Below are positions 22,251 through 62,853 of a stretch of DNA of 64,000 bases, one piece after another. Every line of letters starts with the position of its first letter. The stretch's first letter is position 1. The DNA comes from Rhodospirillales bacterium (lineage in GTDB: Bacteria > Pseudomonadota > Alphaproteobacteria > Rhodospirillales > Magnetospirillaceae), in NCBI GenBank assembly GCA_019455065.1, contig JACFNC010000014.1, positions 1-64,000 of the forward strand. The letters run 5' to 3'. A program made the position numbers and the translations under genes. The notes under the pieces were generated by a model. That model saw only the letters and a program-made list of their open reading frames with translations, made no database searches and had not been told where the DNA came from.

Positions 22251-23240
22251 TTACAATCGCTGACGCGCTTTTGACCCGGCTTGACTGATCGACGACGTCA
22301 GGTGGCGACAGGCAGCGATCGACGTAGCAGATTCGGTGTAGTGGTTCGTCGTTGTCGCGCTTCGATGGCCGAGGGCAACCTGGGCCAGGTCTGGGCGATT
22401 GGGATCGGCCTCGACGAGAGCGATGGCCACGCCGTTGCGGAAGAAATGGGGTGGCAATCTGCGGCCCATATAGCGCTCCGTGGTGCGGCAAGCGGCTGCG
22501 TAGAATGCTGCGCCGCCGAGCGGGCGTCCACCTTTGCCAATCAACAAAGCGTCATGGGTCTGGACTCCGCGAAGAGTAATGTATTCAGCGAGCAGGGGTG
22601 CGAGTTCCGAAGGAAGCAGGCGTATGCGGGACTCGCCGGTTTTCATCCGGTCGGGCGAGAAACGGATGGTAGAGGCCTCCATATCAATGTCTCTGAGCGA
22701 AATGCCGACGAGCGCCCGACGTCGTTCGGGAACCCAAACTGCCAGCAGCAGCGCCAGGCCGTCACGAAAATGCTGAACCCGGCGCCAGCCACTCATTTGC
22801 CGGGCTGCCGCGATACCGCATTTTGCTGCCGCAACGATCTCGACCGCGCTCACCATGCGCGACCGCCGCTGCTTCGGTGTGCGGCTGGCGACATTTGCAA
22901 GCCGCTCCCGGGTCCGATAGAGCCAATCGAACTGGCCGACTCGCACCGCACCTGGCCACAGGAGTGTCGCTACAAGGAGCAACTGGTGCACGTAGCCGTG
23001 AATGCTGCGGGCGCTGGCCCCTCCTCGCGTTGCCCCGCGAATAAACGCCCGGAGACCGGCCGGGGTGACCTCGGGCGTTGGCGCTGCCGATAGGTATCGC
23101 CCGAAAACTGCGCCGTAGGTGCGAATCGTCACAGGCTTCCAGCCAACGCCAGTTTCGTCGTGATGTGCCGCAATCCAGCGCTCAGCCAATTCTGGCGGCC
23201 AAGTTGTCGCCACTTGTCGGGCCACGTCCGCCGTATTCAT
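22251..23240 (-). CDS. tyrosine recombinase, small partner
   Basis: A 329-residue site-specific recombinase. An N-terminal SAM-like DNA-binding domain (about 1-110) precedes the catalytic domain with Arg in ERRRALVGISLRDID, the H-x-x-R box HFFRNG, and the C-terminal LGHRSATTTNHYTE with His and nucleophile Tyr. Its start codon overlaps the stop of the larger upstream recombinase (ATGA), so the two are made together. This is typical of elements that use two or three tandem recombinases. It is not the integrase associated with the tRNA repeat. Confidence 0.87.
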   Translation of the reverse strand: MNTADVARQVATTWPPELAERWIAAHHDETGVGWKPVTIRTYGAVFGRYLSAAPTPEVTPAGLRAFIRGATRGGASARSIHGYVHQLLLVATLLWPGAVRVGQFDWLYRTRERLANVASRTPKQRRSRMVSAVEIVAAAKCGIAAARQMSGWRRVQHFRDGLALLLAVWVPERRRALVGISLRDIDMEASTIRFSPDRMKTGESRIRLLPSELAPLLAEYITLRGVQTHDALLIGKGGRPLGGAAFYAAACRTTERYMGRRLPPHFFRNGVAIALVEADPNRPDLAQVALGHRSATTTNHYTESATSIAACRHLTSSISQAGSKARQRL

Positions 23241-25360
23241 GGCCTCTGCCGCTCGCCATTTTCGATCGCCTGGCGCAGCAGATCCTGCCACAGGCGTTGG
23301 GCCAGGGCGTCGTTGGCCTCGGCGTAATAAGCCTCGGTCGTGGCGATACGCCTGTGTCCCAACACGGTTTGCACAAGCGCCATTTTCGTCGGGTCTTGGT
23401 CCAGGATGATTTTGGCGGTCAAGTGTCGGGCGAGATGGAGGTTCTGTAGAAATCCTCCTACACGCCGGTTGACATGGACGAAGCTCCTGTTGAGGAGTGT
23501 GGGAGCGCGGTGACTTTGTTCTGCGGCCGGAAACAGGAACGGGTTGTCCGGTGCCGAGCCCACTGCGCGAACGAGTAGCGGTCGTACATCTTGAATAAAC
23601 CACCGGACGACCGCCACAGAGCTATCGGTGAGTTCCACGAAAAGGTCTTTGCCGTTTTTGACCTCGTGCCAAGGAATTTCAATGCGGCCACGGCCCGCTG
23701 GTGGCAGATGGAGATTGCGGCTAGGCCCATATATGCGGAGGGTCGAAAGATTTGCCCGGCGCAGAGGTGCGGCTCTTAAGATGGCATGAAGCGTCGCGAC
23801 CAAGGCCAGATTCATAGCCTCGAGATCGGCAGGGTGTTTCGCTAATCTGTGTCGCGCCATCTCGATAAGCCGATCGGGGAGGGCATACCACGCGTAGAGT
23901 GTCCTCGGATCTCCGAATGCTCTCAGGCGCTCGGCATGGCGGCTCCCCATCCGGGTGGTTGCGAACGTGCGCCTCACCTTACCCGTTCGTGGGTCGGTGC
24001 GTTTGTTGATGAGTGCAGGGTCGACCCGATCCCGCAATACACAAATTTGCTCAATCTCTTCGCTTGAACTGCCAGCGCTTGCGGCGAAAGCGAGCATCGC
24101 AGTGGCGGTGGATTTCTTGTAGCTGCTCTTGAATTCATAGGCCTTACCGGCGGCCTCGGACCTCGTACGTTGACGGAGCCCGATGTCGGCGATCAGGAGG
24201 CGCAATGTCTGAGCGGTTGCGAACTGCCGCAAGCCTGTTGGCCAGTGACCGGTGTCGGCATAGAAGGTCGTAACCGCCATCACGAAGATGCTGCGCTGGT
24301 GAACCAGGGTGCTCGCGGAATAGAGCCCGCCGCCACCGTCGAAGGGACGATCCAACAGTCCCAATTCTGCGGCGAGATCCGTGGGCTCTACGACCAGGTC
24401 GGCGAGGTCGACCTCGCCGATATCTGTGCGCGCCATGCGGCGGGCGTAGTCCTCCCAGATTTGTTGTACTGCTGGGGGAAGCTCCCTGAATCGCGGATAG
24501 GTGCGCCTGCGGCCGTCGGCATACAGGCGTGAAAGGGTGCGACGTGGCCATGACGGGACGGCGCTTTGTAGGCGTTCCCAGCCGTAGATGGTGTTGCGGA
24601 GGAGCTCAAAGACGTTCACTCGCTGCTGCCGCTCCAGGTCCTTGCCGAATTTTCTCACAATTTCGTCATCCACGGAGTAAGGGGGGAGGGTTTCCCGCAC
24701 GCAGTAGGCGACCAGCCCCCAGATCTTGGCAAGCGCACCGCGGGTTCCCGGGAGGCGGTCTGCTGCCTCGACGAGTTGCCGCCATTCGGGGGGGAGAGCG
24801 GCGGCCGACAGGCGAGTCCGCGCATTGCGGTCGACCAGCCTGACAGCGCGGAGGATGCGGCTCCGCATTGTTGCCATAGTGCTCGGGGCCACCCCCATTG
24901 CGGTTGCCGGCACATTCCTGAGCCGAGGCCGAATGACTCTTTCGAACGCCGGAATCATGGCAGGGGCTTCACCGACAGCGTCGGCGAAACGCCTAATAGC
25001 AGTGACCACACTCTGTCGTTCGTTGGCCGGCCAGGGCTGGACCTGGACCGCTGCAATGGCATCCGCCAGAGTCGCCTGGGCGCGCCAGATTCGGTTCGTC
25101 ACCTCGGTGGGCAGCGGAGGCAGAAGGGCTAGGTGGCGGAGGGCGCTAATCTCGTCGCGAATGCGGGAGTTAACAAAAGTTTGATTCGCCAGGGCTTGCA
25201 GTTCCGCAACCGGATCGTTCGACACTACATCATTTGCATCTCGCCCGGCAGATTCAGCCAACCGGCGGAGCCCTCGCCGAGCCGCCATGTACACGCCGCG
25301 GGAGGGAAACGAGCTGGCATGCACCTGAGCCAGAGCGTCGTGGGCGGCGATGGATGCCAT
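23237..25360 (-). CDS. large tyrosine recombinase
   Basis: A 707-residue protein whose C-terminal third is a tyrosine recombinase catalytic domain: Arg in APLRRANLSTLRI, HLARH as the H-x-x-R box, and VLGHRRIATTEAYYAE with the nucleophile Tyr. The N-terminal 400 residues are helical, Arg-rich and unassigned. The start at 25360 has a GAGCGGGA element; the ATG at 25417 has none. It is co-translated with the smaller recombinase and preceded by an excisionase-like gene. Large recombinases in pairs are known from alphaproteobacterial integrative elements. Confidence 0.82.
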   Translation of the reverse strand: MASIAAHDALAQVHASSFPSRGVYMAARRGLRRLAESAGRDANDVVSNDPVAELQALANQTFVNSRIRDEISALRHLALLPPLPTEVTNRIWRAQATLADAIAAVQVQPWPANERQSVVTAIRRFADAVGEAPAMIPAFERVIRPRLRNVPATAMGVAPSTMATMRSRILRAVRLVDRNARTRLSAAALPPEWRQLVEAADRLPGTRGALAKIWGLVAYCVRETLPPYSVDDEIVRKFGKDLERQQRVNVFELLRNTIYGWERLQSAVPSWPRRTLSRLYADGRRRTYPRFRELPPAVQQIWEDYARRMARTDIGEVDLADLVVEPTDLAAELGLLDRPFDGGGGLYSASTLVHQRSIFVMAVTTFYADTGHWPTGLRQFATAQTLRLLIADIGLRQRTRSEAAGKAYEFKSSYKKSTATAMLAFAASAGSSSEEIEQICVLRDRVDPALINKRTDPRTGKVRRTFATTRMGSRHAERLRAFGDPRTLYAWYALPDRLIEMARHRLAKHPADLEAMNLALVATLHAILRAAPLRRANLSTLRIYGPSRNLHLPPAGRGRIEIPWHEVKNGKDLFVELTDSSVAVVRWFIQDVRPLLVRAVGSAPDNPFLFPAAEQSHRAPTLLNRSFVHVNRRVGGFLQNLHLARHLTAKIILDQDPTKMALVQTVLGHRRIATTEAYYAEANDALAQRLWQDLLRQAIENGERQRP

Positions 25361-25532
25361 GGTCGTCCCGCTCAATGTAAGACGATAGTACGCCCGCAAC
25401 GCGACACGAGCGGGCATGAGTTGACACTATGAACAGGGAGTAAGGACGGTGTGTTCCAATAAGATCCGAATGGGGACGCCCCGTTTTTACACTCTTGCTC
25501 TAATCTTGCGACAGTATTTGACATGGACGGAC

Positions 25533-32006: not shown

Positions 32007-32654
32007 ATGGAATTCACGACCCGCGACGAGGTCAAGAATGTCTACGAACGGCGCGCCGCTTGGTACGACCTCACCGCCAACCTCTACTACCTGCTCGGCT
32101 TTCGCGAACAGGCCTATCGGCGCCGGGCCGCCGAGGCGCTGGCGGTCGGGCCGGGCGACGCCGTGGTCGAAATCGGCTGCGGCACCGGACTGAACTTCGC
32201 CCTGATCGAGCGGCGGATCGGCGCCGGCGGCCGCCTGATCGGCGTCGATCTTACCCAAGCGATGCTGGATGGCGCTCGTCGACGCGTCGTCGCCAACGAT
32301 TGGCGGAACGTGGAGCTGGTGTGTACGCCGGCGGCCGAGTTCCGGTTTCCGGCGCAAGTCGATGCCGTGTTGTCGACCTTCGCCCTGACGCTGGAACCCG
32401 ACTTCGAGGCGGTGATCGCAGAAGCGGCCCGAGCGCTGAAACCGGGTGGACGCTTCGTCCTGCTTGATCTGAAGATTCCCGATGGCTGGCTGGGGCGGCT
32501 GGCGCCGCTTCTGCTGCCGCTGGTCCGGCCGTTCGCCGTTTCGATGGCGGTCGCCCGACGGCAGCCGTGGCGCGCGATGGAACGTCACTTCGCGCAGGTG
32601 CGGCGGTCCGGACTCTATTTCGGTATCGCCTATTTGGCCGTGGGGGTGCGATGA
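32007..32654 (+). CDS. class I SAM-dependent methyltransferase
   Basis: A 215-residue methyltransferase with motif I VVEIGCGTGLNFALIE (about 49-64), GVDLTQAMLDGA as the acidic ribose-binding loop, and LKPGGRFVLLDLKIP. The C-terminus has a hydrophobic helix (LAPLLLPLVRPFAVSMAVA) and resembles ubiquinone/menaquinone-type or phospholipid methyltransferases; substrate unknown. The ACGGAGG site supports the start at 32007. Its stop codon overlaps the HD-GYP start (ATGA). Confidence 0.78.
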   Translation: MEFTTRDEVKNVYERRAAWYDLTANLYYLLGFREQAYRRRAAEALAVGPGDAVVEIGCGTGLNFALIERRIGAGGRLIGVDLTQAMLDGARRRVVANDWRNVELVCTPAAEFRFPAQVDAVLSTFALTLEPDFEAVIAEAARALKPGGRFVLLDLKIPDGWLGRLAPLLLPLVRPFAVSMAVARRQPWRAMERHFAQVRRSGLYFGIAYLAVGVR

Positions 32655-33493
32655 ACTGGGCGCGCGACCGGCGGCTGCTCGAGTCGCTGATGATCATGGG
32701 GGCGGTCGTCGAGGCCCGCGACCCCTTCACCGGCGGCCATCTTTGGCGCACATCCGAGATCGCCAAGCTGCTGGCGCAGCGGGCCGGGCTCGGCGAGGAG
32801 ACCGTGTTCGCCGCGACGGTGGGCGGCTGGCTGCACGACCTCGGCAAGGTCGGCATTCCCGATGCCGTCCTGCTCAAACGCGGCCGCCTCGACGAAGAAG
32901 AATACGCGGTGGCCCGTCGGCATCCCGAGATCGGGCGCGCCATCCTGGCGCCGCATCCACTCGCCGGCCTCGTCGTCGATACCGTCGCCCATCATCACGA
33001 GCGCTGGGACGGCGATGGCTACCCCGACCGGCTCGCGGGCGAGGCCATTCCGCTGGTCGCGCGCCTCGTGGCCATCGCCGATGCCTTCGACGCCATGACC
33101 AGCGTAAGGCCGTACCGGCAACCGCTCGACGTGCCGACCGCCTTGGGCCGCATGAAGGCGGAGGGCGGCCGTCAGTTCGATCCCGGCCTACTCGATGCTT
33201 TCGCCGAAATCGCCGAAGCCGGCCTGCTCGACCATATTGTCGGCCACAGTGGTTTCGAGCGCCCCCTCGTACTGTGCCCGCATTGCGGCCCGGTGATCGC
33301 GCTGCCGCGCTCCGCCAAGGCGGGCGACCTGCATCACTGCCAGTCCTGCGTCGGCGAATACCGGCTGGAGGCCGAGGGCCTGACGTTCGTCGCGACGGCA
33401 ACCGGCCGACCGGCCCGAGGCGGCGCCACACCGAATCTGGCCGAAGTCGACGAGATGCTGAAGGCCCTCGAAGGCTTCCTGCGGCGCCCGTGA
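32651..33493 (+). CDS. HD-GYP domain protein with C-terminal zinc ribbon
   Basis: A 280-residue protein with an HD-GYP phosphodiesterase domain: EARDPFTGGHLWRTS, HDLGKVGIP (H62, D63), the paired HHHERWDGDGYP near 114-125, and VARLVAIADAFDAMTS. It likely hydrolyses cyclic di-GMP. After residue about 200 it adds a four-Cys ribbon, CPHC and CQSC about 20 residues apart, which could bind zinc and tune activity. There is no receiver or membrane segment. It is coupled to the preceding methyltransferase gene. Confidence 0.87.
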   Translation: MNWARDRRLLESLMIMGAVVEARDPFTGGHLWRTSEIAKLLAQRAGLGEETVFAATVGGWLHDLGKVGIPDAVLLKRGRLDEEEYAVARRHPEIGRAILAPHPLAGLVVDTVAHHHERWDGDGYPDRLAGEAIPLVARLVAIADAFDAMTSVRPYRQPLDVPTALGRMKAEGGRQFDPGLLDAFAEIAEAGLLDHIVGHSGFERPLVLCPHCGPVIALPRSAKAGDLHHCQSCVGEYRLEAEGLTFVATATGRPARGGATPNLAEVDEMLKALEGFLRRP

Positions 33494-33499
33494 CACACC

Positions 33500-33540
33500 T
33501 TGTCACAGTTTTCCGCGGTACCGACAAACTCTGGTGACAG
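33500..33540 (+). promoter_or_regulatory. recurrent island promoter motif, copy 1
   Basis: TTGTCAC (33500-33506), 16 nt, then GACAAACTCTGGTGACAG (33523-33540). The same two boxes recur upstream of other island operons with 16-17 nt between them. The next downstream feature is an intrinsic terminator at 33581, so this copy may drive a short RNA rather than the hemerythrin-like gene. Confidence 0.7.
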
Positions 33541-33622
33541 GCACGGACCACTCTGCTCGCCGAACGAAACGCCTCCTTTGCCGCCGCCCGCGTCTCCTAC
33601 TCCGCGGGCGGCGGATTTTTTT
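33530..33622 (+). ncRNA. candidate small RNA
   Basis: A possible transcript of about 90 nt between motif copy 1 and a perfect intrinsic terminator. It contains no plausible coding sequence. An unpaired CCTCCTTTGCC stretch (33572-33582) is complementary to a strong Shine-Dalgarno sequence. Eleven bases pair with GGCAAAGGAGG at 43700-43710, the ribosome-binding region of the EF-hand gene. Start site and existence are inferred; the terminator is directly visible. Confidence 0.35.
33581..33622 (+). terminator. intrinsic terminator
   Basis: A perfect 12-bp stem, CCGCCGCCCGCG (33581-33592) with CGCGGGCGGCGG (33603-33614), a 10-nt loop, and A plus seven T (33615-33622). It separates the HD-GYP gene and motif copy 1 from the second motif copy and the hemerythrin-like operon. 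Confidence 0.9.
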
Positions 33623-33647
33623 GCCCGCTGCCCGGCGACGAAACCAT

Positions 33648-33689
33648 TTGTCACAAAAAACGCCTGCAGCGGACACACTCTGGCGACAT
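33648..33689 (+). promoter_or_regulatory. recurrent island promoter motif, copy 2
   Basis: TTGTCAC (33648-33654), 17 nt, then GACACACTCTGGCGACAT (33672-33689). It lies 105 nt before the hemerythrin-like start and after the terminator, so it is the probable promoter or activator site for the hemerythrin-like, PBP2 and Lgt genes. Confidence 0.7.
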
Positions 33690-33794: not shown

Positions 33795-34220
33795 ATGAAC
33801 GAGACCATTTCGTCCTGGACGCCGGAACTGGCGAGCGGCGTCCGCAGCATCGATGCCGGTGCCGAAGGACTGTTCTTCCTGCTCAACAACCTGTTCCAGC
33901 CGGGCGTCGAGTGCCACCAGGGCACCAGCGCCTGTCGCGATCTCGGCTGCGGCAAGATCGCCGCGATCCGCCGCTATCTCGTCCGACGGTTCGCGGAGGA
34001 AGAGCGGATGATGCGGGCTTCGGGCTACCCCGACGCCCGCCAACATGCCGACGACCATGCCCACATGCTGACGCGGCTCGAAGCACTGCTCGCCGCGCAC
34101 AAATGCGGCCAGTGCGACGAGGCCGAGATCCGCCAGTTCGTCGCCGCCTGGTCGCTGGACCATATCTTTGCCCGCGACAAGCAGTACGGCACCTGGGCGC
34201 GGGCGGAATCAACGGTTTGA
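33795..34220 (+). CDS. hemerythrin-like protein with missing His ligands and extra Cys
   Basis: A 141-residue protein of the bacteriohemerythrin fold: W-x-P-E-L-A-S-G start, FAEEERMM, GYPDARQHADDHAHM and HIFARDKQYG. In the standard protein seven residues bind a di-iron site. Here the helix A ligand (IDxQH) is Ala (IDAGAEG) and the helix B His (normally HF) is Arg (RRFAEEE), whereas the EE, HxxxH and HxxxxD ligands remain. Five cysteines are present, including ECHQGTSACRDLGCG and KCGQC. Canonical O2 binding is unlikely; another metal or a thiol sensor is possible. The start of PBP2 (TTG) overlaps its stop. Confidence 0.8.
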   Translation: MNETISSWTPELASGVRSIDAGAEGLFFLLNNLFQPGVECHQGTSACRDLGCGKIAAIRRYLVRRFAEEERMMRASGYPDARQHADDHAHMLTRLEALLAAHKCGQCDEAEIRQFVAAWSLDHIFARDKQYGTWARAESTV

Positions 34221-36049
34221 ACCTCGATCAAGAACGCCAACGGCTGTTCGGCCGCCGCGCCGCCATCTTGGCCGGCGGTCAATTGGTCCTGGCGTCGGCG
34301 CTGGTCGGCCGGATGTACTACCTACAGGTCGTCGAGGCCGACAAGTATCGTACGCTGGCCGAGGACAACCGCATATCCCTGCGGCTGCTGGCGCCGCCGC
34401 GCGGCCGCGTCCTCGATCGCCACGGCACGCCCCTGGCCGTCAATAGGCAGAACTTCCGCGTTCTGGTGATCGCCGAACGCGCCGCCGATCTCGAAGGCAC
34501 GCTGGCCGCGCTAGGCCGGATCATTCCCCTGGATGCCGAGGAGCGCCGCCGCATCCTGCGCGACGCCGCCCGCCGCCGCGATTTCGTGCCGGTGCTGGTT
34601 CGCGAGAATCTCTCTTGGCAGGAGGTGTCGCGCATCGAGGTCAACGCCCCCGATCTGCCCGGCGTCGAAATCGCCGTCGGCCCCAGCCGGGCCTACCCGC
34701 TGCAGAAGGTCGCCGCTCACGTCGTCGGCTATGTCGGCGCCGTGTCCGAGGCCGATGCGGCGGCCGGCTCCGACCCTGTTCTGGAACTGCCCGATTTTCG
34801 CATCGGCAGGGCGGGCATCGAGCGCACCTATGACGGCGTGCTGCGCGGCGGCGCGGGCACCAGCCGCGTCGAGGTTAATTCGGTCGGCCGCACCATCCGC
34901 GAACTCGCGCGCCAAGACCCGCGCCCCGGCCGCGATCTCCGCCTCGCTCTCGACTCAGCGCTGCAGGAATTCGCGAGCCGTCGCCTGGGCGACGAGAGCG
35001 CCGCGGCAACCGTGATGCACGTCCATTCCGGAGAGGTTCTGGTGATGGCGTCGACCCCTGGCTACGATCCCAACCTGTTCGCGCAGGGCATGAGCGCGGC
35101 GGATTGGAAGGCACTGATCACCGACGAGCGCGCGCCGCTGACCAACAAGGCGATCGCCGGCCAGTTCGCCCCCGGCTCGACGTTCAAGATGATCACCGGG
35201 CTGGCCGCGCTGCAGGGCGGGGCAACCGATCCCAGCCAACGGGTGTTCTGCCCCGGCTATTACGAACTCGGCAACGCCCGTTTCCACTGCTGGAAACGCT
35301 CCGGCCACGGCAGTCTCGACCTCGAAGGAGCGCTCAAGCACTCCTGCGACGTCTATTTCTACGAGATCGCCCGCCGCACCGGCATCGACCGGGTCGCCGC
35401 GATGGCGCGGCGCCTGGGTCTGGGCAGCGCCACCGGCATCGACCTGCCGGGCGAGCGCCCCGGCACCATCCCCGATCGCGCCTGGAAGCGGGCGACGCTC
35501 GGGACGCCGTGGTATCCCGGCGAGACCCTGGTCAACGGCATCGGCCAGGGCTTCGTCACCGCAACTGCGCTGCAACTGGCGACGATGACCGCTCGGCTGG
35601 CCAATGGCGGCTTGGCGGTGTCGCCACGCCTGGTCGCCGGCCCGCCGGCGGCCCCGGCGTCGCTCGGGCTCGACCCAAAGCATCTGGCGGTCATCCGGCG
35701 CGGCATGGCGGCGGTCACCAACGAGCCGGGCGGCACCGCCTTCGCGGCGCGCATCGACAATCCGGCCATACGGATGGACGGCAAGACCGGCACCGCGCAG
35801 GTGCGCCGGATTACCCAGCGCGAGCGCCGGAGCGGCGTACTCAAGAACGAGGACCTGCCGTGGAAGCGGCGCGACCACGCGCTGTTCGTCGGCTATGCGC
35901 CGTCCGATCAGCCGCGGTTCGCCTGCGCGGTCATAGTCGAGCACGGCGGCGGCGGCTCGGCCGTGGCGGCGCCGATCGCCCGCGACATCCTGATCGAAAC
36001 GCAGAAGGCGCATCCGCCGGCGCCGCCGCCCATCACCGAAGGGAGCTGA
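34217..36049 (+). CDS. mrdA: penicillin-binding protein 2 (peptidoglycan transpeptidase)
   Basis: A 610-residue class B PBP of the MrdA (PBP2) type. It has a membrane anchor (about 15-38), a dimerisation/pedestal domain (PPRGRVLDRHGTPLAVN), then the transpeptidase domain with catalytic Ser in APGSTFKM near 319, SCD as the second motif, and KTGTAQ near 523. It cross-links wall peptides during elongation. A TTG start overlapping the hemerythrin-like stop codon (TTGA) is the best available start. No mreB, mreC or rodA is adjacent, as there would be for the housekeeping copy, so this is probably an accessory copy. Confidence 0.9.
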   Translation: MNLDQERQRLFGRRAAILAGGQLVLASALVGRMYYLQVVEADKYRTLAEDNRISLRLLAPPRGRVLDRHGTPLAVNRQNFRVLVIAERAADLEGTLAALGRIIPLDAEERRRILRDAARRRDFVPVLVRENLSWQEVSRIEVNAPDLPGVEIAVGPSRAYPLQKVAAHVVGYVGAVSEADAAAGSDPVLELPDFRIGRAGIERTYDGVLRGGAGTSRVEVNSVGRTIRELARQDPRPGRDLRLALDSALQEFASRRLGDESAAATVMHVHSGEVLVMASTPGYDPNLFAQGMSAADWKALITDERAPLTNKAIAGQFAPGSTFKMITGLAALQGGATDPSQRVFCPGYYELGNARFHCWKRSGHGSLDLEGALKHSCDVYFYEIARRTGIDRVAAMARRLGLGSATGIDLPGERPGTIPDRAWKRATLGTPWYPGETLVNGIGQGFVTATALQLATMTARLANGGLAVSPRLVAGPPAAPASLGLDPKHLAVIRRGMAAVTNEPGGTAFAARIDNPAIRMDGKTGTAQVRRITQRERRSGVLKNEDLPWKRRDHALFVGYAPSDQPRFACAVIVEHGGGGSAVAAPIARDILIETQKAHPPAPPPITEGS

Positions 36050-36050
36050 C

Positions 36051-36848
36051 ATGCCGTTTCCCGAGATCGACCCGATCGCCATCCAACTCGGCCCCATCGC
36101 CATCCGCTGGTACGCCCTGGCCTATATCGCCGGGCTGTTCGGCGGCTGGGGCTATCTGCGCTTCCTGGCGAAACGCCCGCCGTACCCGATGACCATAACC
36201 CAGGCCGACGACTACCTGACCTGGGCGACGCTCGGCGTCGTGCTCGGCGGCCGGCTGGGCTACGTGCTGTTCTACAAGCCGCTCTATTTCCTGGGCTCGC
36301 CGTGGGAGATCGTGATGGTCTGGCACGGCGGCATGTCGTTCCACGGCGGGCTGCTCGGCGTCGCCGCCGCCACCATCCTCTATGCCCGTCGCCACGGCCT
36401 GCGCCTGTTGGCCGTCGCCGACGCGCTGGCGGTGATCGCGCCGATCGGCTTGTTCTTCGGCCGGATCGCCAACTTCGTCAACGGCGAGCTGTTCGGCCGC
36501 CCGGCGCCGGATGTGCCTTGGGCGATGGTCTTTCCCCATGGCGGGCCGGTGCCGCGCCATCCCAGCCAGCTCTACGAGGCGGCGCTGGAAGGCCTGGTTC
36601 TCGCCGTCCTGCTGCATCTGCTGTGGCGGATTCCGGCGGTGCGGCTGCGCCCCGGCACCCTGACCGGCACCTTCCTGTGCGGTTATGCCGCCGCGCGCAT
36701 CACCGTCGAGTTCTTCCGCGAGCCCGACGCCTATCTCGGCTATCTGTGGGGCGGCGCCACGATGGGCCAGCTGCTGTCGCTGCCGATGGCGGCACTCGGA
36801 CTCGCGCTGGTCCTGCGCGGCCGCAGGGCGGCGCCCCAGCGCGGTTGA
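36051..36848 (+). CDS. lgt: prolipoprotein diacylglyceryl transferase
   Basis: A 265-residue inner-membrane enzyme that transfers diacylglycerol to the lipobox cysteine of prolipoproteins. Seven transmembrane segments and the Lgt signature are clear: HGGMSFHGGLLG near 90-101, GRIANFVNGELFGRP near 144-158 with essential Arg and Asn residues, and PRHPSQLYEA with YEA. It follows mrdA by 1 nt. Lgt is normally a lone housekeeping gene, so its place in a mobile island suggests a second copy for island lipoproteins. Confidence 0.93.
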   Translation: MPFPEIDPIAIQLGPIAIRWYALAYIAGLFGGWGYLRFLAKRPPYPMTITQADDYLTWATLGVVLGGRLGYVLFYKPLYFLGSPWEIVMVWHGGMSFHGGLLGVAAATILYARRHGLRLLAVADALAVIAPIGLFFGRIANFVNGELFGRPAPDVPWAMVFPHGGPVPRHPSQLYEAALEGLVLAVLLHLLWRIPAVRLRPGTLTGTFLCGYAAARITVEFFREPDAYLGYLWGGATMGQLLSLPMAALGLALVLRGRRAAPQRG

Positions 36849-40319: not shown

Positions 40320-42302
40320 TCAGACCCTCCTGGCGCCGGCGGGAACGGCGGTGCGCACCGGCGCCCCGATACGGAAGCGGCGGTCGGCCAGCGACAGCAG
40401 TCCGCCGAGGCCGAGCAGCACCGAGCCGAGCCACAGCATGCCGACCAGCGGCTTCCAGTACAGGCGCACCGTCCAGCCGCCCTTTTCGTCGGGATCGCCG
40501 ATCACCGCGTAGAGGTCGCCGACCAGGCTGCTTTGGATCGCCGCCTCGGAGGTCGGCTGGCCGCGCACCGTATAGACGCGCTTCTCGGGCTCCAGCACCG
40601 CCACGGCGGCACCGTCGCGGGTCACCGTGAATGTCGCCTGGGTGGTGGTGTAGTTGGGGCCGGTGCCGTCGCGGACCGCGTCCAGGGTGAAGCGGTAGTC
40701 GGCCACCGCCACGCTCTCGCCGATGCGCATGGTCTCGATTTTCTCGACCTGCCACAGCGAGGCGCCGGTGATGCCGAGGATCACCACCGCCAGTCCGAAA
40801 TGCGCCGTCGCCATGCCCCAGGTGCCGCCGGGCAGCCGCGCCAGCCGGCGTAGCGTCTCGGCCGGCGGGGCGCGGAATAGGCGGACGCGCTCGGCGAGGT
40901 CGGTCAGGGTGCCGACGCCGAGCCAGGCCGCCAGGCCGAGACCGAGCGCCGCCCAGGCGGCATCGGCGTCGGCGCTGAGCCAGATGCCGACAAAGGCGGC
41001 GATTAGGGCGGTGACGCCGGCCACGGTCAGGCGCTGCAGCGCGCCGGAAAGGTCGCCGCGCTTCCAGGCCAGCAGCGGCCCGAGGGCCATGACCAGGACC
41101 AGCGGCACCATCATCGGCAGGAAGGAGGCGTTGAAGAACGGCGGTCCGACCGAGATCTTGCCGCCGCCGAACACGTCGACGAACAGCGGGTACAGCGTGC
41201 CGAGCAGCACGGTCGCGGCGGCGGCGCTCATGATGACGTTGTTGAGCACCAGGCCGCCCTCGCGGCTGACCGGCGCGAACAGACCGCCGCCGCTGACCGC
41301 CTGGGCGCGGCGCGCGAACAGGGTCAGCGAGCCGCCGACGGTGGCGACCAGGAGCAGCAGGATGAAGGTGCCGCGGGTCGGATCCGTGGCGAAGGCATGG
41401 ACGCTGGTCAGCACGCCCGAGCGCACCAGGAAGGTGCCGAGCAGGCTGAGCGAGAACGCGACGATCGCCAGCAGGATGGTCCAGCTTTTCAGGGTCTCGC
41501 GCTTCTCGACGACGATCGCCGAGTGCAAGAGCGCGGTGCCGGCCAGCCACGGCATGAACGATGCGTTCTCGACCGGATCCCAGTACCACCAGCCGCCCCA
41601 GCCGAGCTCGTAATACGCCCACCACGAGCCCAGCGCGATGCCGGCAGTCAGAAAGACCCAGGCGGCCAAGGTCCAGGGACGCACCCAGCGCGCCCACGCG
41701 GCGTCGACGCGGCCTTCCAGCAAGGCGGCGATGGCGAAGGAGAAGGCGATCGAGAAGCCGACATAGCCGAGATAGAGGAACGGCGGGTGCAGCACCAGGC
41801 CGATGTCCTGCAACAGCGGATTGAGGTCGTTGCCGTCGAGCGGCGGCCGGCCGACGCGCAGGAACGGATTCGAGGTGAACAGGATGAAGGCGGCGAAGCC
41901 GACGGCGATCATCGCCTGCACCGCCAACACCCGCGCCCGCAGGCCGGTGCGCAGGTTGCGCCCGAACGCCGCCACCGCCCAGCCGAACGCCGCCAGGATC
42001 AGTACCCACAGCAGCAGCGAGCCCTCGTGGTTCGCCCACACGCCGGAGATCTTGTAGAACAGCGGCTTGGTCGAGTGCGAGTTTTCGGCGACGTTGAGGA
42101 CCGAGAAGTCGGAAACGACGTAGGCCCAGGTCAGGGCGGCGTAGGACGCGCCGACCAGCAGGAACTGGACCAACGCCGCCGGGCCGGCGGCGTTCATCCA
42201 GCGCAGGTCGCCGCGCCCGGCGCCGACCAGCGGCACCACCGCCTGGAACAGCGCGACGAATAGGGCAAGAACCAGGGCGTAATGCCCCAACTCGACGATC
42301 AT
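40320..42302 (-). CDS. ccmF: CcmF, haem lyase subunit
   Basis: A 660-residue membrane protein with about 14-15 transmembrane segments and the haem-handling WWD motif WGGWWYWDPVEN near 235-246, plus conserved periplasmic His residues (HEGSLLLW, VLHPPFLYLGY). It attaches haem to CxxCH apocytochromes with CcmH and CcmI. The first gene of the ccmF-ccmH-ccmI-tusA run; a recurrent island motif ends 47 nt before its start. The haem export and chaperone genes ccmA-E are absent from the window. Confidence 0.95.
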   Translation of the reverse strand: MIVELGHYALVLALFVALFQAVVPLVGAGRGDLRWMNAAGPAALVQFLLVGASYAALTWAYVVSDFSVLNVAENSHSTKPLFYKISGVWANHEGSLLLWVLILAAFGWAVAAFGRNLRTGLRARVLAVQAMIAVGFAAFILFTSNPFLRVGRPPLDGNDLNPLLQDIGLVLHPPFLYLGYVGFSIAFSFAIAALLEGRVDAAWARWVRPWTLAAWVFLTAGIALGSWWAYYELGWGGWWYWDPVENASFMPWLAGTALLHSAIVVEKRETLKSWTILLAIVAFSLSLLGTFLVRSGVLTSVHAFATDPTRGTFILLLLVATVGGSLTLFARRAQAVSGGGLFAPVSREGGLVLNNVIMSAAAATVLLGTLYPLFVDVFGGGKISVGPPFFNASFLPMMVPLVLVMALGPLLAWKRGDLSGALQRLTVAGVTALIAAFVGIWLSADADAAWAALGLGLAAWLGVGTLTDLAERVRLFRAPPAETLRRLARLPGGTWGMATAHFGLAVVILGITGASLWQVEKIETMRIGESVAVADYRFTLDAVRDGTGPNYTTTQATFTVTRDGAAVAVLEPEKRVYTVRGQPTSEAAIQSSLVGDLYAVIGDPDEKGGWTVRLYWKPLVGMLWLGSVLLGLGGLLSLADRRFRIGAPVRTAVPAGARRV

Positions 42303-42349: not shown

Positions 42350-42391
42350 CTGTCGCCGGAGTTTGTCCTCGGGATCCCGATTTGGTGACAA
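42350..42391 (-). promoter_or_regulatory. recurrent island promoter motif, copy 3 (ccmF)
   Basis: On the minus strand TTGTCAC (42385-42391), 17 nt, then GACAAACTCCGGCGACAG (42350-42367). It points at ccmF. The spacer contains the palindrome TCGGGATCCCGA. Confidence 0.72.
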
Positions 42392-43632: not shown

Positions 43633-43715
43633 GCGGATCAGATCGGGCTAAATTAGCGGGAACAAATCCTCCGCCCGGCCATTGGCTCGTGAGACCCAAG
43701 GCAAAGGAGGACCCG

Positions 43716-44144
43716 ATGCGATCCATTCTCCTGACGGGAGCGCTTGTGCTTGCGGTGCCCGCGTCCGCGAACGCCGCCGAGCAGGCCGGCTTCGGCCAGA
43801 TCGACGCCGACAACGACGGCGCCGTCACCTGGACCGAAGTTCTCGATCGTCACCGCACGGCGTTCGAGCGCATGGACAAGAACGGGAACGGCACCGTCGA
43901 TCAGGCCGAATTCGCCGCATTTCCCGGCATCGTCGCCGGCGGCCGTGGTCAGGACCAGGCGATGCGCGATCGCCGGTTCCAGCGGTTCGACGGCAACGGC
44001 GACGGCCGCCTCGGCTTCGACGAATATTCCGGCGGCCACCGCCGCATGTTCGACCGTGCCGACGCCAACGACGACGGCCGCGTGACGCGACAGGAGTTCG
44101 CCGATCTGCGTCAGGCCCGCCGTCAGCAGGCGCGGGGGCAGTGA
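43716..44144 (+). CDS. secreted EF-hand calcium-binding protein
   Basis: A 142-residue protein with a signal peptide (cleavage near ANAAEQ, about 21) and four EF-hand loops: DADNDGAVTWTE, DKNGNGTVDQAE, DGNGDGRLGFDE and DANDDGRVTRQE. All keep the acidic ligands at positions 1, 3, 5 and 12. A periplasmic Ca2+ or other divalent-metal binder. The very strong GGCAAAGGAGG site is complementary to a segment of the candidate small RNA near 33.6 kb. It is followed directly by the DUF302 gene. Confidence 0.87.
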   Translation: MRSILLTGALVLAVPASANAAEQAGFGQIDADNDGAVTWTEVLDRHRTAFERMDKNGNGTVDQAEFAAFPGIVAGGRGQDQAMRDRRFQRFDGNGDGRLGFDEYSGGHRRMFDRADANDDGRVTRQEFADLRQARRQQARGQ

Positions 44145-48296: not shown

Positions 48297-48337
48297 CTGT
48301 CACAAAGTACCGCCGTGCCGACGAACTTCAGTAACAG
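48297..48337 (+). promoter_or_regulatory. recurrent island promoter motif, copy 4
   Basis: CTGTCAC (48297-48303), 16 nt, then GACGAACTTCAGTAACAG (48320-48337). It ends 45 nt before the TlpA-like start and splits the cytochrome operon from the thiol-redox operon. Confidence 0.62.
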
Positions 48338-51008: not shown

Positions 51009-51641
51009 ATGGCCATCGCGATCACGCGCCGCCGCGTGCTCGGGCTCGCCGCCGCCGCGGCAGCGGCGGGCGCGATGCCTGCCTTGGCCGCGCCGGAGGC
51101 GGTAGCGGCCAACGCCGCCGCCCTTTACGACGACCCCGACGCGCCGGTCGGCGGCAATCCCGACGGCGACGTCACCCTGGTCGAGTTCTTCGACTACCGC
51201 TGCGGCGCCTGCAAGGCGGTGGCGCCGACGATCACCCGCCTGCTCGCCGAGGACGGCAACATCCGCCTGGTCTACAAGGAGTGGCCGATCATCGGCCATT
51301 TCTCGCGCTCGGCCGCCGAAGCGGCGCTGGCCGCCGACCGGCTCGGGCGCTACGTGCCGCTGCACGAGGCGCTGATGGGCCATCCCGGGTTGCCCTATCC
51401 GGGCAAAGTCATGGAACTGGCCGAGAGCGTCGGCGTCGCCCCAGACGTGCTGAAACGAACGATGGCCGCCGAGGCGCCGCGCATCGCGGCGGCGATCGAG
51501 CGCAATCTCGACCTGGCGCGCCGGCTCGCCCTGCCCGGCACGCCGGCCTTCGTGATCGGCGGCGAGATCGTGCTCGGCAGCAAGGATCTCGCCAGCCTCA
51601 AGCGCCTCGTCGACGACGCCCGGCGCAAGACGATCGGCTGA
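51009..51641 (+). CDS. DsbA-family oxidoreductase, Tat-type signal (ScsC-like)
   Basis: A 210-residue protein with a twin-arginine-like signal (TRRRVLGLAAA) and a DsbA-like thioredoxin fold with an inserted helical domain. The redox centre is FFDYRCGACK near 62-71, and the cis-Pro loop is GTPAFVIGG near 179. It belongs to the Com1/ScsC branch. ScsC proteins protect Salmonella against copper-induced thiol damage. Precedes a paralogue by 16 nt. Confidence 0.87.
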   Translation: MAIAITRRRVLGLAAAAAAAGAMPALAAPEAVAANAAALYDDPDAPVGGNPDGDVTLVEFFDYRCGACKAVAPTITRLLAEDGNIRLVYKEWPIIGHFSRSAAEAALAADRLGRYVPLHEALMGHPGLPYPGKVMELAESVGVAPDVLKRTMAAEAPRIAAAIERNLDLARRLALPGTPAFVIGGEIVLGSKDLASLKRLVDDARRKTIG

Positions 51642-52634: not shown

Positions 52635-53135
52635 TCAGTCGATGCGCTGCGGCCGGCCGGTGTCCTTGTCGAAGGCCAGCTTGTCGACGACGGCACCGTC
52701 CTGGGTGACGATCTCGGCGACGATGGCGTCCTGCTGCTCGGTGACCGCGCCGATCTTCAGCCGCTCGTTGCCCATCATCGCCAGATGGCGCTGCAGCCGC
52801 TGGGTGACCGCGTCGGTGGTCAGCGGCTCGGCGGTCTGCCAGCCCATGCCGGGACCGCCGCCCCAGCCCTGCATCATTCCCGGTCCCATGCCCGTGCCGG
52901 GGCCGCCGCCCCAGCCCTGCATCATCCCGGGTCCCATGCCCCAACCGGGACCGCCGCCCCAGCCCTGCATCATTCCCGGTCCCATGCCCATGCCGGGGCC
53001 GCCGCCCCAGCCCTGCATCATCGGGCAAGGCCCCCAACCGGCGCCGGCGCCGCCCTGCGGGCCATGCGCCAGCGCCGTGCCGCCAATCGTCAGCGCGATG
53101 GCTGCCGAAGACGCCAGTACGAGGAATTTGTTCAT
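52635..53135 (-). CDS. secreted Met/Gly-rich repeat protein, copy 1
   Basis: A 166-residue exported protein (signal peptide ending near ALAHG, 24). Residues about 38-100 are four repeats of a 16-residue unit similar to MMQGWGGGPGMGMGPG, encoded by 48-nt tandem repeats. The C-terminal domain (QRHLAMMGNERLKIGAVTEQQDAIVAEIVTQDGAVVDKLAFDKDTG) is shared with the gene at 53494. Met clusters of this sort bind Cu(I) in CopC, CusF or PcoE-like proteins, so copper sequestration is likely but unproven. Confidence 0.75.
   Translation of the reverse strand: MNKFLVLASSAAIALTIGGTALAHGPQGGAGAGWGPCPMMQGWGGGPGMGMGPGMMQGWGGGPGWGMGPGMMQGWGGGPGTGMGPGMMQGWGGGPGMGWQTAEPLTTDAVTQRLQRHLAMMGNERLKIGAVTEQQDAIVAEIVTQDGAVVDKLAFDKDTGRPQRID
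52861..53040. repeat. 48-nt tandem repeats inside a coding region
   Basis: The phrase CCCCAGCCCTGCATCAT recurs at 52861, 52909, 52957 and 53005, exactly 48 nt apart. The repeats are in frame and encode the Met/Gly/Trp unit of the secreted protein. Confidence 0.85.
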
Positions 53136-53235
53136 GACAGTCCTCCTGTTCGCGTCGTCAAGGCGAATACTAGCATCCGCGGCGCCTTCTTCTTAGCTAG
53201 GCATCGGCATCATCCAAGCGGATGAGGCCTTTTCA

Positions 53236-53472
53236 TCATCGAGACAGGTCCTGGCGCCGCTGCAGGAACTCGTCGCGGCCGATCTCGCCGTTGGCGTAGC
53301 GGGTCTCCAGCGCCGCCAAAGCCCCGCCGCCGCGCCGGACGCCGCCGGCGGCGAGCCGGACGATCACCACGATGCCGAGTACGAGAAGTCCGATCCACAG
53401 CAGCGACATCGCGCCGTGCATCGCCATCGGCCAGAACCAGCCGTCGCCGAAATAGCCCATGTGGTTCCACAT
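53236..53472 (-). CDS. SHOCT-domain membrane protein, copy 2
   Basis: A 78-residue paralogue of the 52397 gene with an aromatic N-terminus (MWNHMGYFGDGWFWPMAMHG), one transmembrane helix and the C-terminal SHOCT sequence LAALETRYANGEIGRDEFLQRRQDL. AGGAGGTCGTC precedes the start. With the gene at 53494 it repeats the two-gene layout of the other copy, so a tandem duplication is evident. Confidence 0.85.
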   Translation of the reverse strand: MWNHMGYFGDGWFWPMAMHGAMSLLWIGLLVLGIVVIVRLAAGGVRRGGGALAALETRYANGEIGRDEFLQRRQDLSR

Positions 53473-53493
53473 GACGACCTCCTGTGCTCGGGA

Positions 53494-54015
53494 TCAGTCG
53501 ACGCGCTTGCGCGTATGGGTGCGGGGATCGATGGCGAACTTGTCGACCACGGCCCCCTCGGCGCGGGTGACGATGGTGGCGACGATGGTGCCGTCGTCCT
53601 GGGCGGCGACGTCGCCGACCTTCAGGCGCTCGTTGCCGGTCATCGCGACGTGGCCTTCGAGATGCTGGCGCACGGTGTCCGGCGTCAGCTCGGCCGTCTG
53701 CTCCATGTCGGGACACGGCATCGCGCCCGCGCCGCCGCCCATCATGCCCATCATCGGTATGCCGCCGCCCATGCCGCCGCCCATGCCGCCCATGTGCTGC
53801 ATCATCTGCTGCATCATCTGCGGGTTCATCATGCCGGCCATCATCCCCATCATGCCGCCGGGGGCGGCGCCGTCGGGATGGTGCTGGGCGTGCATCTCGG
53901 CCGCATTCGCCGTCGGCTCGGCCGCGGCTTCCGGCGCCTGCATCTGAGCCGCCGCCGTTCCGGCGACGATCACGGCGAGAGCCGTCGTGGCGGCGGCGAT
54001 CCGGATTTTGTTCAT
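53494..54015 (-). CDS. secreted Met-rich protein, copy 2
   Basis: A 173-residue exported protein (signal peptide ending near AAAQM). The central region is extremely Met-rich, including GGMMGMMAGMMNPQMMQQMM and further MGG runs. The C-terminal domain TGNERLKVGDVAAQDDGTIVATIVTRAEGAVVDKFAIDPRTH matches the copy at 52635. Cu(I) binding is the likely function. The start at 54015 is favoured by the AGAGGA spacing. It faces the response-regulator gene across a 170-bp promoter region. Confidence 0.77.
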   Translation of the reverse strand: MNKIRIAAATTALAVIVAGTAAAQMQAPEAAAEPTANAAEMHAQHHPDGAAPGGMMGMMAGMMNPQMMQQMMQHMGGMGGGMGGGIPMMGMMGGGAGAMPCPDMEQTAELTPDTVRQHLEGHVAMTGNERLKVGDVAAQDDGTIVATIVTRAEGAVVDKFAIDPRTHTRKRVD

Positions 54016-54059
54016 GGTCGGCATCCTCTGGTTCGTTCGATGCCTTCATTCCACACCGC

Positions 54060-54150
54060 ATTTGTCACCGGCGTGCGTCCGGAACCCGGAAAAGTGCAAC
54101 CGTTTGCGACTGGGGCCGCGGCCCGCCACAGTCCGTCACAAATTTCGCCG
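54060..54150. promoter_or_regulatory. divergent promoter region with TTGTCAC-like boxes
   Basis: Between the Met-rich gene and the response-regulator gene, TTTGTCAC occurs near 54062 and CCGTCACAAAT near 54133. On the minus strand GACGGACTGTGGCG resembles the right box of the island motif. These boxes are incomplete, so autoregulation by the two-component system is only suggested. Confidence 0.4.
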
Positions 54151-54184
54151 ATGCAGGCGCCGACGCGCGCGCTATCATCCGGCC

Positions 54185-54904
54185 ATGGACAACGCCCCCC
54201 ACATCCTGGTCGTCGACGACAATCGCGACATCCGCGACCTGCTCGGCAAGTTCCTGGTCAAGCACGGCTTCCGCGTCACCACCGCCGCCGACGGCCGCGA
54301 GATGTGGCGCAAGCTGGAGGCGGCGCGCATCGATCTGATCGTGCTCGACCTGATGCTGCCCGGCGAGGACGGCCTGACGCTGTGCCGCAACCTGCGCGCC
54401 AAGTCGAGCCTGCCGGTGGTGATGCTGACCGCGATGGGCGAGGAGACCGACCGCATCGTCGGCCTGGAGATGGGCGCCGACGACTACGTCCCGAAGCCGT
54501 TCAACCCGCGCGAACTGATGGCCCGCATCAAGGCGGTGCTGCGCCGGACCCAAGGCGGCGGCCAGCCCGAGCAGCCGAGCGACGGCACCGTCTACCGCTT
54601 CGCCGACTGGCGCTTCGATGCCAGCCGGCGCGAGCTCGCCGGCGAGGACGGCGTCGCGGTGCCGTTGTCCACCGGCGAGTTCGAACTGCTGCTGGCGCTG
54701 GTCCAGCGCCCCGGCCGGGTGCTCAACCGCGACCAGCTCCTCGATCTGGCGCGCGGCCGCTCGGCGACGCCGTTCGACCGCAGCATCGACACCCAGATCA
54801 GCCGCCTGCGCCGCAAGATCGAGCCCGACCAGAAGAACCCGCAGCTCATCAAGACGGTGTGGGGCGAAGGCTACGTCTTCACGCCGCAGGTCGTGCGCGA
54901 ATGA
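54185..54904 (+). CDS. OmpR-family response regulator
   Basis: A 239-residue regulator. The receiver domain (about 6-120) has acidic D11-D12, phosphoacceptor D55 in VLDLMLPGEDG, T-loop LTAMGE and KPFNPREL. The C-terminal winged helix (about 140-235) has LSTGEFELLLALVQRPGRVLNRDQLL and SIDTQISRLRRKIEP. It binds DNA directly. Genes for it and the sensor kinase overlap (ATGA). Likely master regulator of the surrounding copper/redox operons, by position. Confidence 0.92.
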   Translation: MDNAPHILVVDDNRDIRDLLGKFLVKHGFRVTTAADGREMWRKLEAARIDLIVLDLMLPGEDGLTLCRNLRAKSSLPVVMLTAMGEETDRIVGLEMGADDYVPKPFNPRELMARIKAVLRRTQGGGQPEQPSDGTVYRFADWRFDASRRELAGEDGVAVPLSTGEFELLLALVQRPGRVLNRDQLLDLARGRSATPFDRSIDTQISRLRRKIEPDQKNPQLIKTVWGEGYVFTPQVVRE

Positions 54905-56280
54905 GGCTGCTGCCGCGCACCCTGGCCGGCCAGACCGTGCTGGTGCTGCTGATCGGGCTGACGGTGTCGCATCTGGCCAGCATGTGGATCTATTCCACCG
55001 ATCGCGTCCAGGTGCTGACCCAGCTCGGCGGCTTCAACGTCGCCACCCGCGTCGCCGAGATCACCCATCTGGTCGAGGACACGCCGCCCGAGTGGCGCGA
55101 GCGGCTGCTGCGCGCCGTCGAGAGCCCGAGCTTGAGCGTCGCCGTGACGCCCGAGAGCATGGTGGTGCCCGGCGAGCACGACTGGCAGGAGCGCGCGCTG
55201 GAGGCGTTGCTGGCCCAGGACCTCGGCGGCCGGCCGATCATCGTTCGCCTGCACGAGCCCGCCGATTCCGGTCCGACCTCCGGCTTCGAGCGGACCGCCG
55301 GTTGGCTGCACATGCACATGATGCGCGGCGTCCACGGCTGGCCGGTCGGGCAGAGCCTGAACGTCTCGGTGCGGCTGGAGGACGGCGCCTGGATCAATTT
55401 TGCCACCGCCATCCCGCAGTCGGAAAGCCTGTGGTCGAGCGCCTCGACCCTGTCGATGGTGCTGATGACGGCCGGGGTGCTGGTGGTGTCGATCTGGGCG
55501 GTGCGGCGGCTGACGCGGCCGTTGGCCGGCTTCGCCCGCGCCGCCGAACGGCTGGGCCGCGACGTCGGGGCGCCGCCGCTGGCGGTCGCCGGCCCGATCG
55601 AGGTGCAGCGCGCCGCCGAGGCCTTCAACGACATGCAGGCGCGCATCCGCCGCCTGGTCGAGAACCGCACGCTGATGCTGGCGGCGATCAGCCACGACCT
55701 GCGCACGCCGATCACCACCCTGAAGCTGCGCGCCGAGTTCGTCGACGACGACGAGGAACGCGCGCGCATGCTGGCGACCCTGGCCGAGATGGAGGCTCTG
55801 GTCGGCGAGACCCTGGCCTTCGCGCGCGACGAGGCGGTGCGCGAGGACCGCCGCCGCGTCGACCTGGTCGCCCTGGTCGCCAGCGTCGTCGACGACCTGG
55901 CCGACGCCGGCGCGCCGGTGACCCTGACCGCGCCGGCCAAGCTGCCCTACGACTGCCGGCCGCTGGCGCTCAAGCGGGTGTTCCAGAACCTGATCGAGAA
56001 CGCGGTGAAATACGGCGAAACCGCCGCGGTGAACGTCGCCGCCGACGACCATGCCGTAACCATCTCGGTCGACGACCGCGGCCCCGGCATTGCCGATGCC
56101 GAGCTCGCCAAGGTGTTCACGCCGTTCTACCGCATCGAGGCCTCGCGCTCGCGCGAGACCGGCGGCGTCGGGCTCGGCCTCGCGGTGGCGCTGTCGATCG
56201 TCCACGCCCATGGCGGCGAGCTTCGGCTCGCCAACCGTCTTGAGGGCGGCCTGCGCGCCGCCGTCGAGCTGCCGCGCTAA
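54901..56280 (+). CDS. sensor histidine kinase with His/Met-rich periplasmic loop
   Basis: A 459-residue kinase. Transmembrane helices near 10-30 and 180-200 flank a periplasmic domain of about 150 residues that contains LHMHMMRGVHGW at about 136-147, a plausible Cu(I)/Ag(I) site. HAMP domain, then H-box ISHDLRTPITTLKLR (H near 265), N-box NLIENAVKYG near 363, DDRGPGI and GVGLGLAVA. It phosphorylates the paired regulator. The signal is inferred from the ligand-like residues and the context. Confidence 0.9.
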   Translation: MRLLPRTLAGQTVLVLLIGLTVSHLASMWIYSTDRVQVLTQLGGFNVATRVAEITHLVEDTPPEWRERLLRAVESPSLSVAVTPESMVVPGEHDWQERALEALLAQDLGGRPIIVRLHEPADSGPTSGFERTAGWLHMHMMRGVHGWPVGQSLNVSVRLEDGAWINFATAIPQSESLWSSASTLSMVLMTAGVLVVSIWAVRRLTRPLAGFARAAERLGRDVGAPPLAVAGPIEVQRAAEAFNDMQARIRRLVENRTLMLAAISHDLRTPITTLKLRAEFVDDDEERARMLATLAEMEALVGETLAFARDEAVREDRRRVDLVALVASVVDDLADAGAPVTLTAPAKLPYDCRPLALKRVFQNLIENAVKYGETAAVNVAADDHAVTISVDDRGPGIADAELAKVFTPFYRIEASRSRETGGVGLGLAVALSIVHAHGGELRLANRLEGGLRAAVELPR

Positions 56281-56725: not shown

Positions 56726-57217
56726 CGGACACCTGCAAATCTGCTTCGCGGCGAATGTGGCAGACGGATGTCGCGCGATTATGACTGGAGGTCGGGAGAT
56801 TGTGACAAAGTGTGCCTCACCGGGTTCTGCCACATGCGCCTATAGAACGGGCGCTAGCAATGTCCGCATTCAGGAAGCGGCACATCTGATCTCAATGGCG
56901 GGGATGGGCGCAAAGCGGTCGTCCGCGTCGAACCGCGCCAGCGCCGTCTCCTCGGCGGCGGCGACATGTAAACGCCCTCCCGTCGCCGTCCGCTAATTCT
57001 GCTGAGTTAGCAATACTAGCAGACGCACTACGCCCCGGCGGCCAAACGCCAGGCATATCCGGCCTACCGGCACTTCCCGTCCCAGCAGGACCTGCTGACG
57101 AACGTCACCTTCATTGTATCCCTCCGGCGAGGGCCGCCTTCTCAGCCGAGTCGCTGACAGGGATTCTGACTGCTCGATCAACTTCGGCCGGTGGGAAAGG
57201 TGTCCACGAAATCGTTT
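56726..57217. other. intergenic: motif copy 5, then insertion debris
   Basis: About 490 nt. It contains the cytochrome promoter motif at 56768-56808. From about 56880 on it has no plausible gene and no clear repeats; it is probably debris left of the IS66 remnant. No left inverted repeat of the IS66 element could be found. Confidence 0.5.
56768..56808 (-). promoter_or_regulatory. recurrent island promoter motif, copy 5
   Basis: On the minus strand TTGTCAC (56802-56808), 16 nt, then GTCATAATCGCGCGACAT (56768-56785). It ends 42 nt before the cytochrome start at 56725. Confidence 0.62.
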
Positions 57218-62717: not shown

Positions 62718-62853
62718 GGCGTCCTCCGCGCCGCCGCCGGCCTGCCGGCGAAGCCTGCCGGCACAGCATTCCGGCACGGCATTCCGGCACAGGCGCGGAC
62801 GGCGGCAAAGGGCGTCGCCGATCTTGCGAATCGGGTGAGGCGTTCTGCGAAAC

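Follow-up and report, generated by a model that had tools for sequence, protein, structure and literature searches.

Downstream of an HD-GYP-type gene lies a stretch of DNA that may encode a short non-coding, terminator-bounded RNA belonging to the regulon of its gene island's OmpR/EnvZ-type two-component system, a reading that we put forward tentatively, at close to even confidence. An orphan small RNA had been proposed in a preliminary description of this DNA. A regulated promoter motif, a terminator and an anti-Shine-Dalgarno tail stand in favor of that proposal, and against it stand a poor -10 box and an arrangement that is found in no relative. The promoter half of the idea proves stronger than the preliminary description had it, and the RNA itself remains a prediction.

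The window, by which we mean the whole 64-kb stretch analysed, has a G+C content of 68% and belongs to a genome of 3.96 Mb. Along its plus strand the stop codon of the HD-GYP gene at 33493 is followed in turn by the motif, a hairpin, a run of seven Ts, a second motif copy and a hemerythrin-like gene (Table 1). Named relatives of the HD-GYP gene recovered in a homologue search include Telmatospirillum, Magnetovibrio and Rhodospirillaceae bins, as would be expected of an alphaproteobacterial host. A phage-type integrase gene beside tRNA-Gln and a second integrase-like gene (60759-62927 and 23237-25417) frame the region, and these two integrase-type genes are likely to be the ends of an inserted island. 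Within it are genes of its own for PBP2 (mrdA), CcmF, CcmG and an Lgt-like protein, the last named from its sequence (34217-36848 and 40320-42302), with at least one additional CcmG-like match elsewhere in the genome, and genes for small Met- and Gly-rich periplasmic proteins lie near the two-component genes (52635-56280).

Table 1. Coordinates of features in the window.
Feature	Position	Strand	Score or basis
HD-GYP-type gene	32651..33493	+	the terminator downstream may also end its mRNA
Orphan operator/promoter motif copy, TTGTCACA-N15-GACAAACTC-TGGTGACA	33500..33539	+	matrix score 41.9, window maximum
-10 position of orphan copy, CACTCT, weak	33549..33554	+	score -2.3; relatives' register
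Predicted small RNA, about 60 nt	33561..33622	+	inferred from -10 register and terminator
Unpaired CCUCCUUUG, anti-Shine-Dalgarno-like	33572..33580	+	fold prediction
Intrinsic terminator, 12-bp G-C stem, loop TCTCCTACTC, T7	33581..33622	+	
Terminator loop, complementary over 9 nt to the ribosome-binding site of the dsbA-like gene (AGTAGGAGA, starting at 50994)	33593..33602	+	
Second motif copy, upstream of hemerythrin-like gene	33648..33688	+	matrix score 38.2
Hemerythrin-like gene	33795..34220	+	downstream of second motif copy
Motif copy upstream of ccmF	42351..42391	-	matrix score 38.4
GGCAAAGGAGG, EF-hand ribosome-binding site, candidate target	43700..43710	+	
EF-hand protein gene	43716..44144	+	
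Motif copy upstream of ccmG, good -10 (TGAAAT)	48297..48336	+	matrix score 33.8
dsbA-like gene, candidate second target	51009..51641	+	named by reading the sequence
OmpR-type response regulator	54185..54904	+	
EnvZ-like sensor histidine kinase	54898..56280	+	
Weak motif copy upstream of cytochrome c gene	56769..56808	-	matrix score 21.8

A putative operator and promoter of the OmpR-type regulator

The orphan motif copy, whose full sequence is TTGTCACAGTTTTCCGCGGTACCGACAAACTCTGGTGACA, had been placed at 33500-33540; it is confirmed at 33500-33539, scores highest among the window's copies, which number at least four, and is intact at nearly all conserved motif positions. It also fits the two-part pattern TTGTCACA-N22-TCTGGTGACA, which has two matches in the window and none in 100 shuffles, and a looser pattern has three matches in the entire genome, all inside the window, against none for a reversed control. 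The scoring matrix was built from seven copies, five from the window and one each from the relatives G034 and G116, so that motif scores are partly circular. Because the best score in 20 shuffles of the window with the same matrix was 21.7, four of the window copies are clear and the fifth, on the minus strand at 56808, is at the level of noise.

The motif, whose consensus is TTGTYAC-N15/16-GACAAACTY-NNGYRACA, adjoins in relatives response-regulator genes whose products are 64-74% identical to the island's OmpR-type regulator. It was found upstream of regulator homologues at 24 of 29 loci and failed at five, where upstream means within 200 nt and a locus was counted if its copy outscored 49 or more of 50 shuffles of that sequence, the strands and ends of the regulators having been entered by hand from homologue listings; once two matrix contributors are removed, 22 of 27 upstream regions are positive. 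Across the order the exact pattern occurs 20 times in 11 of 314 genomes, as opposed to two occurrences of the reversed control; 18 of these 20 are found on the same contig as a listed regulator homologue, and seven lie within 150 nt of one. Outside the order, among 376 genomes of the class, matches besides those of the genome itself number two, against three for the control, so that support for the motif is confined to the order. From this placement beside regulator homologues and these order-wide counts we conclude that the motif is the probable operator of the island's OmpR-type response regulator, which would bind it. Whether or not the RNA exists, the motif would supply a rule for the operators and promoters of an OmpR-type regulator found repeatedly across the order. 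The neighbors of this regulator encode thiol-redox, cytochrome-maturation, metal-pump and methionine-rich periplasmic proteins. Close to the two-component genes and the genes for small periplasmic proteins, a degenerate copy lies on the minus strand at 54100, and relatives have the same divergent layout of these genes, with the motif in between. The motif was also considered, on consensus alone, as an extracytoplasmic sigma-factor promoter; this was dropped when the motif was found beside the regulator together with a separate -10 box.

That -10 box emerges from an alignment of 25 relatives' copies, in which positions 18, 21, 22 and 23 after the motif core are T, A, A and T in 22, 18, 21 and 22 instances. 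The occurrence of a T..AAT box at a fixed distance identifies the motif as an activated promoter. No conserved separate -35 element was seen in the aligned copies; its usual position is overlapped by the operator, as is the case for other OmpR/PhoB-type activated promoters. By the same register the box of the orphan copy retains the final T of a -10 box without the preceding AA; 11% of random hexamers score as well, and 26 of 27 relatives' copies score higher and one lower (this scoring counts two loci more than the alignment and takes the weak copy at 54100 with its register shifted by one base, its -10 TGGAAT being the best within range). The hemerythrin copy has an equally weak CATCCT (score -2.1), and the TGAAAT of the ccmG copy scores 8.7. 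Of the sequence evidence, it is chiefly the poor -10 box that speaks against strong transcription from the orphan copy, and the same holds for the hemerythrin copy.

The main rival to a small RNA is that there is none, and that 33500-33539 is an additional, upstream operator of the same regulator, aiding the hemerythrin promoter at 33648 while the terminator ends the HD-GYP mRNA. The two operators, at 33500 and 33648, are 148 nt apart before one operon, the terminator begins 88 nt past the HD-GYP stop codon, and the -10 box of the first copy is poor, all of which this explanation accommodates. It accounts less readily for the second copy, whose -10 box is as poor although it precedes a gene, and for the upstream copy having kept promoter orientation and the full motif, including the part beside the -10 box. 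We regard this explanation as somewhat unlikely, though a serious contender.

The terminator and the predicted RNA

The perfect intrinsic terminator reported after the motif is borne out. Its stem (33581-33592/33603-33614) consists of 12 perfect G-C pairs around a loop at 33593-33602 and is followed by A33615 and seven Ts at 33616-33622; it starts 42 nt past the last motif base, with no ORF in between. A simple terminator scan found only the inner part of the hairpin owing to the loop limit of the scan. The fold of 33537-33623 has an energy of -35.1 kcal/mol (z -3.28) that none of 200 shuffles equalled, an advantage that stems mainly from the terminator hairpin. The preliminary description held that this motif copy cannot drive a protein gene, a view that is an inference, as read-through into the hemerythrin gene may occur.

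If the -10 register of the relatives is applied, the RNA is predicted to start near 33561, some 7 nt past the -10 box, and to be about 60 nt long. The length of about 90 nt first suggested would hold only with a start at the end of the motif (33537-33539), giving 85-90 nt; this is the second choice, since GACAAACT, once read as the -10 box, was dropped in favor of the T..AAT box at a fixed distance. The predicted 60-nt form comprises a mostly unpaired 5' tail of about 19 nt containing CCUCCUUU, followed by the terminator hairpin, and the long form has a small 5' stem in addition. Folding predicts that in both forms CCUCCUUUG is largely open and the hairpin loop fully open.

Coding alternatives for the stretch were also considered. 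No ORF fits within the predicted RNA, and the open frames there pass through the terminator. An N-terminally extended hemerythrin read from the open frame at 33534 was rejected, as homologues align only from residue 4-13 onward, and an antisense ribosome-binding site (AAAGGAGG, minus strand) was rejected because no ATG, GTG or TTG lies 4-12 nt after it.

The hairpin could instead belong to a 5' leader with attenuation, in which the first promoter would start a hemerythrin-PBP2-Lgt mRNA that the hairpin stops barring conditional read-through, the short RNA being a by-product. Promoter and operon do lie on the same strand in the same direction, and in the relative G040 the operon is preceded by a motif copy, a leader ORF of 22 aa and a hairpin that resembles a terminator. 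Nevertheless, the second promoter copy past the terminator would bypass the hairpin, neither a leader ORF nor a competing pairing was found at 33540-33622, and no riboswitch in Rfam matches here at gathering. We judge attenuation to be the least probable of the readings weighed here. Searched against Rfam as a whole, the region matches no family at gathering; up to E 10 there are 26 matches, all below gathering, the best of which (E 0.27) reaches half its gathering score.

Candidate targets and a possible circuit

The tail contains CCTCCTTT, the 8-nt anti-Shine-Dalgarno tail of 16S rRNA, of which the plus strand of the window has no other copy. The 11-nt complementarity reported between the RNA and the ribosome-binding region of the EF-hand gene is exact, CCTCCTTTGCC at 33572-33582 matching GGCAAAGGAGG at 43700-43710. 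Not all 11 nt would be exposed as described, however: nine of the matched bases (33572-33580) lie outside the hairpin in the open tail, and the last two are in the first pairs of its stem. Among the 38 island starts, AAAGGAGG is present at the EF-hand start only. By duplex energy that start (-18.8) ranks second of the 38, behind the start at 47705 (-19.1). The start codons of these 38 genes were chosen by script on the best Shine-Dalgarno sequence, which favors anti-Shine-Dalgarno matches. If CCTCCTTT is kept and the remainder randomized, a match of 11 nt to one of the island starts is obtained for 5.4% of tails, compared with 1.0% of fully random 20-mers. Apart from the RNA gene itself, the genome contains GGCAAAGGAGG twice, at the EF-hand site and on contig C36, and the reversed control three times. 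The EF-hand protein, possibly a periplasmic metal binder, scores 50.5 bits against the lanmodulin model, below the cut-off of 135.

The terminator loop offers a second candidate pairing, with the dsbA-like gene. This match is equalled by 1.2% of shuffled loops and by 2.3% of random 10-mers from the window, and AGTAGGAGA-N4-10-ATG is found genome-wide in two places, dsbA and one on contig C8, with one occurrence for the control. In two of 3000 shuffles, equally good matches to island starts were reached by tail and loop together. Having been picked after looking, the complementarities are treated as leads. Their statistics are post hoc and in part reflect the Shine-Dalgarno sequence itself, so that targeting is only suggestive, in agreement with the caution first attached to the EF-hand pairing.

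A relic is a further alternative: the first copy would be an untranscribed leftover or a decoy, and the complementarities would arise by chance in C- and T-rich sequence. The lack of conservation of the element, the weak -10 box and the chance level of the 11-nt match given CCTCCTTT are all consistent with this explanation, against which stands the preservation of the copy at nearly all conserved motif positions. We consider a relic improbable.

Under the small-RNA reading, firing of the kinase would lead the phosphorylated regulator to bind the motif at 33500-33539 and to bring RNA polymerase to the weak -10 box near 33549. The RNA would start near 33561, end in the T7 run of the terminator at 33622, and pair with Shine-Dalgarno sequences, best in the island through its tail with the EF-hand gene and perhaps through the hairpin loop with dsbA, so that translation of the targets would be lowered while the regulon is on.

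The dsbA-like gene sits in a same-strand run that starts with ccmG behind an operator, which makes a brake on the system's own output conceivable. Carried to its full extent, the proposal describes a mobile metal/redox-stress island with a complete circuit, in which the two-component system and its operators are joined by a 60-nt RNA that bears two separate anti-Shine-Dalgarno seeds, the 5' tail for the EF-hand gene and the terminator loop for dsbA. With dsbA lying behind another operator of the same system, the RNA would form an incoherent feed-forward loop that restrains genes activated by the system, and it would move with the island, independently of the small RNAs of the host. Such a circuit seems to us unlikely, a little less so than a relic.

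Relation to known small RNAs and conservation

Two-component-controlled small RNAs are well studied in enterobacteria, and fewer have been described in the Alphaproteobacteria. Should the small-RNA reading hold, sensor, operators and small RNA would all be supplied by the gene island itself. A CCUCC-type motif occurs in the cuckoo/CcsR RNAs, a likeness that had been raised for the present candidate. Membership in either the cuckoo/CcsR or the alpha-r14 (NfeR1) group was nevertheless rejected, as the candidate has no CCUCCUCCC, a single terminator hairpin and no Rfam match above chance. The cuckoo/CcsR RNAs of Rhodobacter are alphaproteobacterial stress RNAs, and CcsR1-4 form a series together with a DUF1127 gene, downstream of an RpoHI/RpoHII promoter (PMC10253847), whereas the candidate would be a single RNA with a two-component promoter and has HD-GYP and hemerythrin neighbors. 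In the NfeR1/alpha-r14 RNAs of Sinorhizobium, unpaired anti-Shine-Dalgarno seeds act on translation starts, and the predicted seeds of the candidate are likewise unpaired; CCUCCUCCC is carried by each of the three hairpins of alpha-r14 RNAs, in contrast to the one terminator hairpin of the candidate, its CCUCCUUU tail and its UCUCCU loop (PMC10746234). ChvR of Caulobacter crescentus is an 84-nt RNA with its own intergenic promoter, is activated by a two-component system and is restricted to one species, and its transcript, regulator dependence and single mRNA target have been demonstrated (PMC6237742). The candidate, a prediction from sequence, would resemble it in being alphaproteobacterial and intergenic, with a two-component promoter and narrow conservation, and differs from it in place and sequence and in that the regulator of ChvR is ChvI (PMC6237742). 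The island's regulator is comparable to CenR of Rhodobacter, which is likewise a winged-helix regulator of the OmpR type and has sites that lie upstream of the promoters it activates; the CenR site is TGA-N8-TGA, and the island consensus does not appear in the part of that report available (PMC9275681). By analogy, the candidate would be most like ChvR in its control and like NfeR1 in its predicted pairing, as a member of neither the NfeR1 nor the cuckoo group.

Conservation of the element was sought at several levels. Of 61 genomes searched with the 321-bp stretch, its own gave a match and the 60 others gave none, and its surroundings have none on plasmids. Among 246 genomes, hemerythrin homologues at E <=1e-20 are present in 27 others, none of them more than 47% identical, and the strict motif is absent from all 27 of these loci; apart from its own, none of the loci compared through the HD-GYP gene has that gene adjoining a hemerythrin like this one. 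A comparably strong terminator follows no other motif copy examined. Given that neither the sequence nor the arrangement is matched in relatives, the RNA element appears to be young or very local. A recurrent orphan RNA in relatives was rejected, with one weak leader hairpin in G040 and nothing comparable elsewhere. At three loci of G116 (L204, L215 and L223), about 180 nt or more separates the motif from the nearest following ORF that starts with ATG/GTG and reaches 60 aa, and a terminator was not found. In G040 (L140, 10849-10383, minus strand) the motif is followed by the 22-aa leader ORF (MPSHALRMIWLGDFPLGHRFLF), which overlaps the terminator-like hairpin; the two precede a small membrane-protein ORF and ccmG, and may constitute an attenuator.
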